A model generated the notes under the pieces. It was not told the DNA's origin and made no database searches. It saw nothing but the letters and a program-made list of their open reading frames with translations. A DNA stretch of 64,000 nucleotides, from positions 310,001 to 374,000 of the forward strand of contig CAJYHN010000010.1 of assembly GCA_913774665.1 (NCBI GenBank), in the 5' to 3' direction. Source of the DNA: an uncultured Microbacterium sp. GTDB lineage: Bacteria; Actinomycetota; Actinomycetes; Actinomycetales; Microbacteriaceae. The position numbers and the translations under genes were made by a program. Shown in pieces: positions 40,778 to 45,516 of the stretch. How positions within the stretch are numbered: position 1 is the first letter of the stretch; each line of letters opens with the position of its first letter.

Positions 40778-40793
40778 TCGAACATGTGTTCGA
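40778..40793. promoter_or_regulatory. LexA (SOS) box
   Basis: TCGAACATGTGTTCGA is a perfect 16-bp palindrome matching the actinobacterial/Bacillus-type LexA consensus CGAACRNRYGTTCG. It ends 8 bases before the ATG of the radical SAM gene and 106 bases before the divergent carboxypeptidase start. No other copy was noticed in the window. Confidence 0.85.
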
Positions 40794-40801
40794 CTGTTCT
40801 C

Positions 40802-42937
40802 ATGAGATGGCAGGGTCAGCAGCTGGGGGTGGACGACACGGCGGCACTCCCGGGCATGGAGCGGATGGACGGCCTCGTCCGATCGGTGACGACGCCGGAG
40901 TTCGCCGGGATGACGTTTCACGAGGTGCTCTGCAAGAGCGCGCTGAATCGCGTCCCCGGCGCCTCGGCCATGCCGTTCGACTGGACCGTGAACCCGTACC
41001 GCGGCTGCAGCCATGCGTGTTCGTATTGCCTGTCCCCGGACACCCTCATCTTGAAAGCGGACGGCCGACAGGTCCCCCTGGCGCAGATCCGTGTCGGAGA
41101 CGAGATCATCGGCACCGAGGGGGGATCGCGAGACCGCCGTTATGTGCGAACGACCGTTCGCGCGAAGTGGAGCACTCGCAAACGCCTCCATCGCGTCACC
41201 CTCGCGGACGGCACCGAGATCGAGTGCAGCGCAGACCACCGGTTCCTGACAGAGCACGGATGGAAACACGTCACCGACTCCCCCGTCGCGGGCCGACAGC
41301 GCCCCCACCTCACGGTGTCGAACCGTCTGCAGGGTTTCGGAACGGGCGCCCCCACCTCCGTGGAGGCGCCGGATCCGGACTGGCGCCAGGGGTATCTGAC
41401 AGGCGTGGTGCGCGGTGACGCGACGATGTTCCACAAGACCCCCGACGACGGCAATCGTGTCCGAGAAATCCACCGATTTCGCCTCGCCCTGGCCGATCGT
41501 GAGGCGCTCGATCTCGCAAAGGAGCTTCTCGAACAGATCGGCATCGTCACGATGGTCCGCCCCGTCTCCGTGCCCGCTCATCGCCGACCCATGACGGCTC
41601 TTCACACGGCGAAGACGGACGATGTCGCGCGCCTCGAGGACTACGTCGCGATACCGCAAACGCGAAGCCGGGAGTGGATGGCTGGCTTCCTCGGGGGCAT
41701 CTTCGACGCGAAGGGCTCTGACTCGGGCGAAATCCTGCGCATAAGCAACGCGAACGACGAACTTCTCTCGTTGGCCGAAGAGGCCTTCGCCGCGTTCCGA
41801 TTCGATACCGTTCGCGAACCCGCTCGCCCGGGCACTGTGTCGGATGTCCGCCTGCGCGGAGGGCTCGCCTCGAGACGACGATTCTTCGATATCGCCCACC
41901 CGTCCCTCACGCGCACACTCGATGTCAGCGGGACAGCGGTCAAGACCAGCGTGGACCTGAGAGTCGTGAACATCGAGGACATCGGCTACGACATCGACAT
42001 GATCGACATCACGACGGACACCGAGGATTTCGTCGCGAACGGCGTCATCAGCCACAACTGCTTCGCTCGCAAGACTCACGAGTACCTCGACCTGGACTAC
42101 GGGGCCGACTTCGACTCGCAGATCGTGGTGAAGGTGAACGTGGCCGACGTCCTGCGCACCGAGGTGCGCCGGGGGTCGTGGGCGCGCGAGCCCGTGATGC
42201 TCGGGACGAACACCGATCCCTATCAGCGCGCGGAGGGTCGGTACCGCCTCATGCCCGACATCGTCGGGGCCCTCACCGACAACGGCACACCCTTCTCGAT
42301 CCTCACCAAGGGCACGCTGCTTCGACGGGACCTCCCTCTGCTCGCCGAGGCCTCGAAGCAGGTGAAGGTCACGCTGGCGATGTCGATCGCCGTCTTCGAC
42401 GACGTCCTCCAGCACTCGATCGAACCGGGCACGCCCAGCGCCGAAGCCCGGCTCGAGACCGTGCGCGCGGCGACCGCGGCAGGATTCCGGGTGACGGTGT
42501 TCCTCATGCCGATCATGCCGCACCTCACCGACTCGATCGCCGCTCTCGACGACGCCCTCGCGCGCATCCGCGAGGCCGGTGCCGCACGCGTCGTCTATGG
42601 CGCACTCCACCTTCGCCCCGGTGCGAAGCAGTGGTTCTTCGACTGGCTCGAGCGCGAGCACCCGCACCTGGTCTCGTCGTACCTCGGGCTGTACCCGGGG
42701 GTCTCGACGACGGCCCCGAAGGCCTACCGCACGTGGCTCGGCAAGCGCATGCGGCCACTCCTGCGCGTGCATCGTCTCGACGGGTGGGACGAGGACGACC
42801 ATCCTCGCGGCCGACCTCAGCCGGGATTGGCCGCGAGGACACCGCCCGCCAGCAGCCTCGGCCCGGTACGCGTCACCGGCGCTGCGGCATCCGGTCGTCC
42901 TCGTGTCGCCCCGGCCAGCGAGCCGACGTTGTTCTGA
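40802..42937 (+). CDS. Rv2578c-family radical SAM protein interrupted by an intein
   Basis: 711 aa precursor: 75 residues of N-extein, a 344-residue intein (residues 76-419) and 292 residues of C-extein. Removing the intein leaves a 367-aa protein. The cluster motif reads PYRGCSHACSY then CFARKTHEYLD, so CxxxCxxC is complete only after splicing (Cys69, Cys73 and former Cys420). The C-extein holds the rest of the radical SAM barrel (LGTNTDPYQRAEGRYRL, ILTKGTLLRRDLPLL, VTFLMPIMPH-like). No Shine-Dalgarno precedes the ATG, so translation may be leaderless. The LexA box upstream predicts DNA-damage induction; I recall the M. tuberculosis homologue Rv2578c as a reported LexA target. Substrate unknown. 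Confidence 0.92.
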   Translation: MRWQGQQLGVDDTAALPGMERMDGLVRSVTTPEFAGMTFHEVLCKSALNRVPGASAMPFDWTVNPYRGCSHACSYCLSPDTLILKADGRQVPLAQIRVGDEIIGTEGGSRDRRYVRTTVRAKWSTRKRLHRVTLADGTEIECSADHRFLTEHGWKHVTDSPVAGRQRPHLTVSNRLQGFGTGAPTSVEAPDPDWRQGYLTGVVRGDATMFHKTPDDGNRVREIHRFRLALADREALDLAKELLEQIGIVTMVRPVSVPAHRRPMTALHTAKTDDVARLEDYVAIPQTRSREWMAGFLGGIFDAKGSDSGEILRISNANDELLSLAEEAFAAFRFDTVREPARPGTVSDVRLRGGLASRRRFFDIAHPSLTRTLDVSGTAVKTSVDLRVVNIEDIGYDIDMIDITTDTEDFVANGVISHNCFARKTHEYLDLDYGADFDSQIVVKVNVADVLRTEVRRGSWAREPVMLGTNTDPYQRAEGRYRLMPDIVGALTDNGTPFSILTKGTLLRRDLPLLAEASKQVKVTLAMSIAVFDDVLQHSIEPGTPSAEARLETVRAATAAGFRVTVFLMPIMPHLTDSIAALDDALARIREAGAARVVYGALHLRPGAKQWFFDWLEREHPHLVSSYLGLYPGVSTTAPKAYRTWLGKRMRPLLRVHRLDGWDEDDHPRGRPQPGLAARTPPASSLGPVRVTGAAASGRPRVAPASEPTLF
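41027..42058 (+). other. Intein with degenerate LAGLIDADG endonuclease domain
   Basis: 344 residues. The first residue is Cys (CLSPDTLILKADG, block A). Block B is IECSADHRFLTEHGW, with Ser in place of the usual Thr of TxxH. Block F is IDMIDITTDTEDFVANGV, ending ISHN followed by extein Cys, so all class 1 splicing residues (Cys1, His, Asn, Cys+1) are present. Two LAGLIDADG helices are visible, YLTGVVRGD with its Asp, and FLGGIFDAKG where the catalytic acidic position is Lys. Codon use is somewhat less GC-biased than the exteins, consistent with later arrival. Confidence 0.92.
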
Positions 42938-43041: not shown

Positions 43042-45186
43042 TTACGCGTCGACGTTCGAGAGCTGACGACCCGAGAGCTCCTCGAGCACGTCGTCACCGA
43101 GCGCGGTCTCTTCGAAGGGAGCCTGGATCTCGGCGCGGTCGAGCAGCTCGGTCATCCGACGGCGACGCTGACGCGTGATCAGCGTGACCACCGTGCCGGC
43201 GCGACCCGCACGGCCGGTGCGGCCCGAGCGGTGCAGGTACGTCTTGTACTCGTCGGGAGCGTCAGCCTGGATGACCAGGTCGATGTCGTCGACGTGGATA
43301 CCGCGGGCGGCGACGTCGGTGGCGACGAGCACGTTGACGCGACCCGAGGTGAGCTTCTCGAGGTTGCGCGTGCGCTTCTGCTGGTTGAGGTCGCCGTGCA
43401 GCGCCACCGCGGCGATGCCGGCGTCGTCGAACTGCTCGGCGAGCATCTCGGCGTAGGCACGGGTGCGGGCGAACACGAGGGTCTTGCCCTCGCGGTCGAC
43501 GAGCGAGTCGAGGATCTGCGCCTTGTCGCGGTGCTCGATGACGAGGACGCGGTGTTCGATGGTGCTCGAGTCCTGGTCCTCGCCGGCGACCTCGTAGACG
43601 GCCGGCTCGACGAGGAACTCGTCGACCAGGGCCGCGACCTCGCGGTCGAGGGTGGCCGAGAAGAGAAGCTTCTGGCTGCCCTTCTTGGTCGCGCGGAGGA
43701 TCCGCTGCACGGGCTCGAGGAAGCCGAGCTCACACATGTGATCCGCCTCGTCGAGGACGGCGATCTGCACCTGCGAGAGGTCGAGCTTTCCCTGGTTCAG
43801 CAGGTCTTCGATGCGACCCGGGGTGCCGATGACGATGTCGACGCCCTTCTTGAGCGCACCGACCTGACGCGCCTGGGGCACGCCGCCGTAGACCTGGGTG
43901 GTGAACAGGCCCACGCTGCGCGCGAGCACCTGCACGGTGCGGTCGATCTGCAGGGCGAGCTCGCGCGTGGGAGCGAGGATGATCGCCTTGGGGGCGCGTC
44001 CGAACTCGCGACGCTGACCCGCCTGCGAGCGCAGGATGCTCTCGACCAGCGGCGCGCCGAAAGCGATCGTCTTGCCCGAGCCGGTGCGGCCGCGGGCGAG
44101 GACGTCGCGTCCCTCGAGGATCGGGGCGACCGTGGCCGCCTGGATGGGGAAGGGGCTCGCTGCGCCGAGACCGGCGAGGGCGCGGACCAGATTGTCGCCG
44201 AGACCCAGCTCGGCGAAGCCTGCGCCGGTGACCGTGGCGGCATCCACGGCCTCGGCCTGCAGACGCTCGTGCACCACGTCGACGCGCTGCTCGTGCTCCG
44301 CGGAGCGCTTCGGAGTGCTGTTCCAATCGCTGCGGCTCGGGCCGTCGTTGCGACGCGGGCGGTCGTCGAACGAGCGCGCCGGGCGGTCGTTGCGGTCGAA
44401 CGAACGAGCAGGGCGGTCGGTGCGGTCGAACGAGCGAGCGGGGCGGTCGTCGCGGTCGAACGCACGGACCGGACGGTCGTTGCGGTCGAACGAACGGACC
44501 GGACGGTCGCCGGCGTCACGACGGGGACGCTCATCACGGTCGAACGAACGCGCGGGACGATCGCCGGCGTCACGACGGGGACGCTCGTCACGGTCGAACG
44601 AACGAGCCGGGCGGTCGCTCCGGTCAAACGAACGCGCGGGACGGTCATTGCGTTCGAACGAACGGGCGGGACGGTCGCCGGCGTCACGACGGGGACGCTC
44701 GTCACGGTCGAACGAACGAGCCGGACGGTCCTTGCGGTCGAACGAGCGCGCCGGACGGTCGTCGCGATCGAACGAACGCGCGGGACGATCGTTCCGGTCG
44801 AACGAGCGCGCCGGACGGTCGTCGCGATCGAACGAACGAGCGGGACGGTGGCCGGCGTCACGACGGGGACGCTCGTCACGGTCGAACGAACGCGCGGGAC
44901 GATCATTACGGTCGAACGACCGGGCGGGCCGATCGTCGCGTGCCGACGAGCGGATGCTGCGGGCCTCGGCACGGCCGGCGCGGTCGGCGGCGTTCCAGCG
45001 GCCCTTGTCGGGGGTCGCCTCGGCCTCGGGACGGTACCCGCGGTGGTTGGGGCTCTTGCTCCCGGGCTTGGCGGGACCCTCTGCACCGGGTCGACGCTTG
45101 CGGTCCTGGAACGAGGTCTTCGCGCCGTAGCGGGGCTCGAAGTTCTTGGCGGCGCGGCCGCCGGCGGGCTTCTTGTTCTTGGGCAT
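43042..45186 (-). CDS. DEAD-box RNA helicase with N-terminal RPARSFDR repeat tract
   Basis: 714 aa from the ATG at 45186 (AGGAAG upstream). Residues ~80-272 consist of about sixteen RPARSFDRxD units and four RPRRDAGD units, an extreme Arg/Asp-rich disordered tract. The helicase core follows: FPIQAATVAPIL, Walker A ARGRTGSGKT, PTRELALQ, DEADHMCELGF, SAT, and HRSGRTGRAG. In typical actinobacterial relatives the basic region is C-terminal; here the long tract is before the core. Likely role is RNA remodelling at low temperature or in ribosome assembly; the tract could drive RNA-dependent condensation, an inference. A 330-bp untranslated region lies upstream. Confidence 0.92.
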   Translation of the reverse strand: MPKNKKPAGGRAAKNFEPRYGAKTSFQDRKRRPGAEGPAKPGSKSPNHRGYRPEAEATPDKGRWNAADRAGRAEARSIRSSARDDRPARSFDRNDRPARSFDRDERPRRDAGHRPARSFDRDDRPARSFDRNDRPARSFDRDDRPARSFDRKDRPARSFDRDERPRRDAGDRPARSFERNDRPARSFDRSDRPARSFDRDERPRRDAGDRPARSFDRDERPRRDAGDRPVRSFDRNDRPVRAFDRDDRPARSFDRTDRPARSFDRNDRPARSFDDRPRRNDGPSRSDWNSTPKRSAEHEQRVDVVHERLQAEAVDAATVTGAGFAELGLGDNLVRALAGLGAASPFPIQAATVAPILEGRDVLARGRTGSGKTIAFGAPLVESILRSQAGQRREFGRAPKAIILAPTRELALQIDRTVQVLARSVGLFTTQVYGGVPQARQVGALKKGVDIVIGTPGRIEDLLNQGKLDLSQVQIAVLDEADHMCELGFLEPVQRILRATKKGSQKLLFSATLDREVAALVDEFLVEPAVYEVAGEDQDSSTIEHRVLVIEHRDKAQILDSLVDREGKTLVFARTRAYAEMLAEQFDDAGIAAVALHGDLNQQKRTRNLEKLTSGRVNVLVATDVAARGIHVDDIDLVIQADAPDEYKTYLHRSGRTGRAGRAGTVVTLITRQRRRRMTELLDRAEIQAPFEETALGDDVLEELSGRQLSNVDA
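44360..44945 (-). repeat. Coding tandem repeats in the DEAD-box helicase gene
   Basis: About twenty 24- to 30-bp in-frame units encode RPARSFDRND-type decapeptides or RPRRDAGD octapeptides. Synonymous differences between copies are common, so it is an old tract kept at the protein level rather than a fresh DNA expansion. Confidence 0.85.
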
Positions 45187-45516
45187 GGAAAAACTTCCTG
45201 GGTTCTGTTCGCGCGAAACAGCGACACCGCTCGTGGCGGTGCGATACCCGGACTCTCGTCGGCCGGGGGCCAATTCACTAGTGATGGTCGAGGCCGCGAT
45301 CGCGTCCTGTCCATCGGCCCCTTGGACTCACAAACCCATCCGTGCGTCACGCACGGTGTCCAGAGCCGACCGCACCACGTTACCGGTCGCGCCTGGGAAT
45401 GGCATCCACGTTCCCACCCTCGGGCACGAGAACAGGAAGATGCCACCACGTGCAGGGCAGGGGACCCTCCGACGGGTTCGGGGATCTCGACCCCCGGCCT
45501 GCACGAAGATAGACGC
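45187..45516. other. 330-bp intergenic region upstream of DEAD-box helicase and ABM gene
   Basis: No credible gene was found here. It holds the long leader of the helicase: a CTGTTTCGCGCGAACAG-type hairpin around 45205-45219, CACCGC-TCGTG-GCGGTG at 45225-45241, and the 10-bp palindrome TCACTAGTGA at 45275-45284. A hairpin-forming long leader is usual for cold-inducible helicases. The divergent ABM-gene promoter must also lie here; no clear -35/-10 was picked out. Confidence 0.5.

Follow-up and report, generated by a model that had tools for sequence, protein, structure and literature searches.

The window analyzed here, a stretch of 64,000 nucleotides from an uncultured Microbacterium sp., carries on its + strand an ORF for a protein of 717 residues (positions 40784..42937) that matches the family models NF038136 and NF038135 and represents the precursor of an intein-containing, Rv2578c-family radical SAM protein. 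Against NF038136, the NCBIfam model named "intein-containing Rv2578c family radical SAM protein," the whole precursor scored 734.9 bits, above the curated cut-off of 700, and the extein scored 485.4 bits against NF038135, the intein-free equivalog model of Rv2578c (cut-off, 430). The precursor was also above the cut-off of the intein model TIGR01445. Pfam analyses detected the Radical_SAM domain PF04055, a LAGLIDADG domain and Intein_splicing, the latter just under threshold (35.4 versus a cut-off of 35.8); in alignment A2, Intein_splicing was matched by 67 of 70 members at E 0.001.

A preliminary description of the locus, made from the sequence alone, had placed an intein at 41027..42058 within a radical SAM enzyme, which the matches to NF038136 and TIGR01445 and the residues at both borders confirmed. 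It had also supposed that intein-bearing members of the family might already be annotated, and NF038136 is such an annotation: in that model the intein covers positions 76 to 334, the C-extein starts at 335, and the insertion site is that of the window. The TIGR01445 search for further inteins in the window's genome matched the 41027..42058 intein alone. Elsewhere in the window, the gene at 43042-45273 (- strand) resembles by eye that of a DEAD-box helicase whose long N-terminal tail consists of RPARSFDR repeats, and the strand opposite to it has an open frame of 1,323 codons spanning that gene.

Architecture of the precursor and its cluster motif

Translation and comparison with intein-free genes delimit an N-extein of 81 residues (40784..41026, + strand, as for all features below) that ends in NPYRGCSHACSY and contains the first and second cluster cysteines, Cys-7 (41006..41008) and Cys-3 (41018..41020). 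It is followed by a class 1-type intein of 344 residues (41027..42058), assigned from HMM matches, comparison within the genus and its predicted fold, and by a C-extein of 292 residues (42059..42937) that starts with CFARKTHEYL and harbors the Radical_SAM domain. Both hallmarks of the radical SAM superfamily, CxxxCxxC and a PF04055 domain, are thus present, and from its sequence the protein is predicted to bind the cluster.

The residues that define a class 1 intein are all in place, i.e., Cys1 (TGC, 41027..41029), S68-A-D-H71 with the block B His in an N-terminal splicing region that comprises blocks A and B (41027..41251; TIGR01445), His343-Asn344 of block G (42053..42058), and Cys+1 (TGC, 42059..42061). 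The usual block B motif is TxxH, according to the passage of a review that deals with it, and the window intein has Ser in the Thr place. A Cys at position 67, adjoining block B, is common to the window intein and one other copy only, L033. From this set of residues we infer that the intein splices by class 1 chemistry: Cys1 would make the first thioester, Cys+1 would then accept the N-extein, Asn344 would cyclize, and in the joined enzyme Cys+1 would be the third cluster ligand. That Cys+1 becomes a cluster ligand had been proposed in the preliminary description, rightly as judged from the motif.

The unspliced chain reads NPYRG-C-SHA-C-SY-C1-LSPD, with Cys1 in the position of the third cluster cysteine. 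The CxxxCxxC motif had been thought to exist only after splicing, but CSHACSYC is complete in the precursor through Cys1, and this earlier reading has to be corrected: the precursor has a decoy motif of its own, completed by Cys1. As read from the sequence, splicing would exchange the third residue of the motif, Cys1 leaving and Cys+1 entering, with a full CxxxCxxC at both stages.

The same arrangement recurs in the 118 rows that we compared (80 named loci; 26 from a phylum sample, one of which belongs to a genus mate; and 12 from the genus, counting the window; 110 of the rows are different). Cys-7, Cys-3, Cys1, Asn and Cys+1 each occur in 118/118 rows and the penultimate His in 117/118; the motif expressions used for these rows required the cysteines, and eight named loci outside the expression, read by eye, have the same cysteines. 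The third cluster cysteine was not found elsewhere in homologues: those read have it at the same position. L206, from a named Gammaproteobacteria bin, is the sole case among the 118 rows with Leu as penultimate intein residue (SLN before Cys+1).

The predicted structure of the intein (mean pLDDT, 90.1) consists of an intein and an I-DmoI-like LAGLIDADG endonuclease. Its Foldseek match to the TliVMA intein (E 1.9e-14) points to a Hint fold, with a global TM of only 0.34 and an rmsd of 15 that may reflect a different placement of the two domains. A single-sequence search gave no solved relatives of the intein at 0.001, and a profile search gave I-DmoI and several inteins; the C-extein alone had no solved relatives at 0.01. 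In a fold search with the whole precursor model, the 50 matches listed were intein, endonuclease, maturase and WhiA entries, and the host was not placed.

As the precursor retains a complete CxxxCxxC through Cys1, its Cys-7, Cys-3 and Cys1 could in principle bind a cluster, Fe or Zn, so that iron-sulfur status would time maturation. In the passages cited, Zn and oxidants are reported to act on catalytic cysteines of other inteins, with Zn bound to these residues blocking them (PMC8529194; PMC6195587). However, any Cys1/Cys+1 intein at this spot would give the same letters, and the predicted precursor is poorly modelled at the cluster loop (residues 65-70, pLDDT of <50; pTM, 0.54). We consider such gating by a cluster or metal very improbable; an ordinary homing intein that occupies the cluster motif is the reading that we prefer, and the following sections bear on it.

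A single insertion site within and beyond the genus

In a sample of 247 genomes of the genus, the host gene was present in 235 and the intein in 66, at a single site. Sixty-five of these 66 could be read through, and all 65 have the intein at the third cysteine, a recurrence that argues against a chance arrangement. They comprise 54 full inteins (343-348 residues) and 11 mini-inteins (154-283 residues), among which C1, S68, D70, H71, H343 and N344 are invariant. The remaining bearer, L093 (genome G133), is a broken gene: the N-extein and the first half of the intein, with its start at the usual place, are present in the fetched stretch, and the intein end and C-extein are absent from it. L085 (genome G019), a full copy, has a stop within the intein. 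The enzyme may have been lost in both hosts.

In the 67 intein-free genes of the genus that were fetched, a non-random set picked from the listed matches, the motif NPYRGC-x3-C-x-Y-C is uninterrupted. Alignment to them placed the insertion exactly at the third cysteine, as the preliminary description had it. L127, the nearest empty gene among those fetched, has TGCTCCTAC directly joined to TGCTTCGCC, and the window reads TGTTCGTAT, then the intein, then TGCTTCGCT. One further intein-free gene, L017, has CFSR where others have CFAR.

Two features vary among the genus inteins. A non-catalytic Cys at intein position 10 is found in 23 of the 54 full and 8 of the 11 mini copies, and the window has Lys there. 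The mini-intein L097 (genus mate G180) contains, within the N-terminal splicing region, EIIGT five times in tandem followed by the imperfect EIIGR and EILGA; other mini-inteins have one copy.

Beyond the genus, the same codon is occupied in 26/26 parsed intein-bearing loci among the matches listed for the phylum sample (396 genomes), and seven more genomes, outside these 26 loci, gave two-piece matches resembling mini-inteins. A scan of named genomes returned at least 583 relatives, of which the best 80 were kept, and in all 80 the intein precedes the third Cys. By NCBI ranks, these best 80 of at least 583 fall into nine named phyla, i.e., Actinomycetota, Pseudomonadota, Omnitrophota, Myxococcota, Planctomycetota, Gemmatimonadota, Rhodothermota, Deinococcota and Armatimonadota, with one locus lacking a phylum; single assignments may be wrong because many loci are metagenome bins.

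Four loci, L160 to L163, carry the same intein in a different host, the PA0069 radical SAM subfamily. L160 and L163 scored 468.7 and 455.6 bits against NF033668 (PA0069 family; cut-off, 360) and were both below the NF038135 cut-off, and L161 and L162 were placed by BLASTP. Among the NCBIfam families listed for L160 and L163, none models a PA0069 protein with an intein. On the intein tree (FastTree) there are three changes of host subfamily and on the extein tree one, which indicates one intein lineage, mostly faithful to its host type, with few crossings. New here is the presence of this intein at this codon in PA0069, a second subfamily of radical SAM enzymes, and across nine named phyla. In radical SAM enzymes of the Rv2578c/PA0069 type, the allelic site immediately precedes the third [4Fe-4S] cysteine; it is a known rule, according to the passage cited, that inteins occupy conserved stretches of active sites (PMC7765530).

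Within the genus, the intein is patchily distributed. The extein tree (132 rows) requires 31 changes between presence and absence, at least 12 of them forced by well-supported branches, and the 11 mini-inteins need 9 changes on it. The intein and extein trees of 65 genus copies share 11 strong splits, and 2 strong intein splits conflict; as much of the history is common to both, descent with loss accounts for part of the pattern.

Recent transfer is seen in three of 19 hand-picked close pairs for which dS and dN were compared, the intein being much closer than the extein at silent sites: dS values for intein versus extein were 0.023 versus 0.253 for L070/L071, 0.063 versus 0.429 for L056/L062, and 0.070 versus 0.225 for L073/L075. 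Most of the other pairs have an intein divergence about equal to that of the extein or higher. Between the window clade and L034, the intein is somewhat less diverged (dS of 0.199-0.207, versus 0.308-0.315 for the extein). Co-conversion, sought as fewer differences adjoining the site, was examined in eight pairs, seven with an intein on both sides and one against the empty L127; the three transferred pairs showed no such depletion and no tract beside the intein. These comparisons of sequences and trees indicate that descent, loss and transfer have together shaped the genus pattern.

The G+C content is 0.634-0.658 within the intein (two 500-base steps wholly inside it) and 0.716 at the end of the host gene. 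Phage or plasmid carriers of the window's intein were not found among 50,697 phage and 72,556 plasmid records (tblastn, E 1e-5). Viral contigs were also considered as carriers: the intein alignment gave eight confirmed loci there, and all eight are intein-free radical SAM proteins.

The endonuclease lesion and constraint on the intein

The LAGLIDADG homing endonuclease domain occupies approximately intein residues 120-295 (41384..41911), as delimited by Pfam, the fold match and a profile alignment with I-DmoI. In this alignment, Asp131 of motif 1 (41417..41419) corresponds to I-DmoI residue 21 (D), and intein residue 229 of motif 2 (41711..41713) corresponds to I-DmoI residue 117 (E); we take D21 and E117 to be the catalytic acids. 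An E117A variant of I-DmoI is present among the structure matches in the Protein Data Bank.

Asp131 occurs in all 54 full-length genus inteins. Residue 229 is Glu in 52 of the 54; the two exceptions, the window and L033, have Lys. An active LAGLIDADG endonuclease of the I-DmoI type has two catalytic acids, of which the window copy keeps D131 and has Lys229 in place of the second. This substitution suggests that the endonuclease is probably dead in the window lineage and that homing has therefore probably been lost, by a change from Glu229 to Lys that would be recent because L034 keeps Glu229.

Substitution patterns are consistent with this reading. The endonuclease-region dN/dS values of the window clade, 0.48, 0.37 and 0.33, are three of the four highest among the 19 pairs; the other 16 range from 0.06 to 0.36, the fourth highest being the 0.36 of L043/L044. 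At columns where at least 49 of the 54 copies agree, the window departs 13 times and L033 15 times, versus 0-8 departures in others and 11 in the stop-bearing L085. The splicing region follows the same trend: its dN/dS in the window clade against L034 is 0.27 and 0.33, versus 0.13 or less in other computable pairs, and for window/L033 it is 1.98, on very few changes (dS, 0.009). As the splicing-region values are also highest in the window clade, constraint appears to be relaxed on the whole intein, beyond the endonuclease.

Relaxation of the splicing region might mean that the intein is by now an inactive passenger that splices poorly, and that the host enzyme is failing in the window genome. 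Six of the 13 otherwise conserved columns changed in the window lie before residue 106, and decay of this kind has precedents in the genus, with the stop inside the L085 intein and the broken L093 gene. Nevertheless, the named splicing residues of the window intein are all intact despite the raised dN/dS, its frame is open throughout, and the extein is under strong purifying selection, with dN/dS of 0.00-0.05 among the window, L033 and L034. We give a failing passenger very little credence.

We are instead confident of a reading that covers the locus as a whole, namely a class 1-type LAGLIDADG intein fixed at one allelic site, which is mainly a homing element and whose endonuclease in the window probably died recently. 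It would persist mainly by homing into a target that the cluster motif keeps constant at the DNA level. After death of the endonuclease, the window genome would have retained it because only precise excision would be tolerated. Occurrence at one site, patchy presence, transfer, frequent loss and mini forms are all accounted for by a homing element alone.

Redox chemistry at the site and comparison with known systems

MoaA is a radical SAM enzyme. The two residues that mark an intein of the MoaA redox-trap type, a Cys at -3 and Cys1, are both present in the window, where Cys-3 is a possible disulfide partner of Cys1 by analogy with the P. abyssi MoaA intein only. In that intein, a Cys-3/Cys1 disulfide is reported as a native redox trap (PMC10663303; PMC3922620, in the passages cited). 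The part of a review that treats these inteins describes the MoaA host as an oxidoreductase and reports a Cys1/Cys+1 disulfide in the Pab PolII intein.

By this analogy, an oxidized Cys-3/Cys1 disulfide would block the first acyl shift and hold an oxygen-labile enzyme as a protected precursor for as long as the cell is not reducing, the intein acting as a selected switch. Both published disulfides are precedents for such redox gating, and both Cys-3 and Cys1 occur in 118/118 rows. However, conservation of Cys-3 is uninformative for a switch, because this residue would be conserved anyway as a cluster ligand. The cases appear to belong to a single intein lineage at a single site and hence provide no independent site choices. 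Moreover, the intein is patchily present in the genus, has been lost and transferred there and occurs in mini forms, which shows that hosts manage without it, and most genus-sample genomes keep the enzyme without it (gene in 235/247, intein in 66/247). A selected redox switch is thus unlikely in our view. We regard as still less probable its broader form, in which a cluster, Fe or an oxidized pair of Cys-3 and Cys1 would keep the nucleophile bound, and the intein would be a general maturation checkpoint for iron-sulfur loading across two subfamilies and nine phyla.

The chemistry proposed for a switch is nonetheless sound and has precedents, a regulatory reading is a plausible and reasonable hypothesis, and the intein could conceivably serve as an oxygen or iron switch. 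Slowing of splicing by redox state or metals may well be demonstrable in vitro because the cysteines have the positions described for P. abyssi MoaA; for the homing element that we favor, it would be a by-product of the site unless shown otherwise. The best 80 of at least 583 relatives and the 65 readable copies in one genus constitute a large natural set in which one radical SAM enzyme can be compared in its intein-bearing, mini-intein and intein-free forms. Such comparisons allow a direct test of whether inteins at iron-sulfur motifs regulate their hosts.

Our searches of an open-licence library gave, among the papers listed, none that describes this Rv2578c-family intein. Compared with the NF038136 family, the window has the same host family and insertion site and differs in nothing of kind, but its copy has Lys at the second endonuclease acid. 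It is ordinary as a homing-type intein, and its family is already catalogued; its place is chemically interesting. With I-DmoI (PDB 2vs7, 5a0w and others) it shares a single-chain, two-motif endonuclease; I-DmoI, in contrast, is intron-encoded and free-standing, and has E117 where the window intein has Lys.

The host of the P. abyssi MoaA intein is a radical SAM enzyme, as is that of the window. According to the published passages on it, the P. abyssi intein shares Cys-3, Cys1 and the CxxC spacing of the cluster motif with the window intein, but it is archaeal, lies in another host family and has a disulfide that controls splicing, which is reported for it and not for the window intein. The M. 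smegmatis DnaBi1 and M. tuberculosis SufB inteins are described, in the passages cited, as splicing in a manner sensitive to oxidation and Zn, with a catalytic Cys as sensor (PMC6195587; PMC8529194). As described there, DnaBi1 is a class 3 intein with an internal Cys partner, unlike the class 1-type intein of the window, and SufB is an iron-sulfur assembly protein, whereas the host in the window is a radical SAM enzyme.
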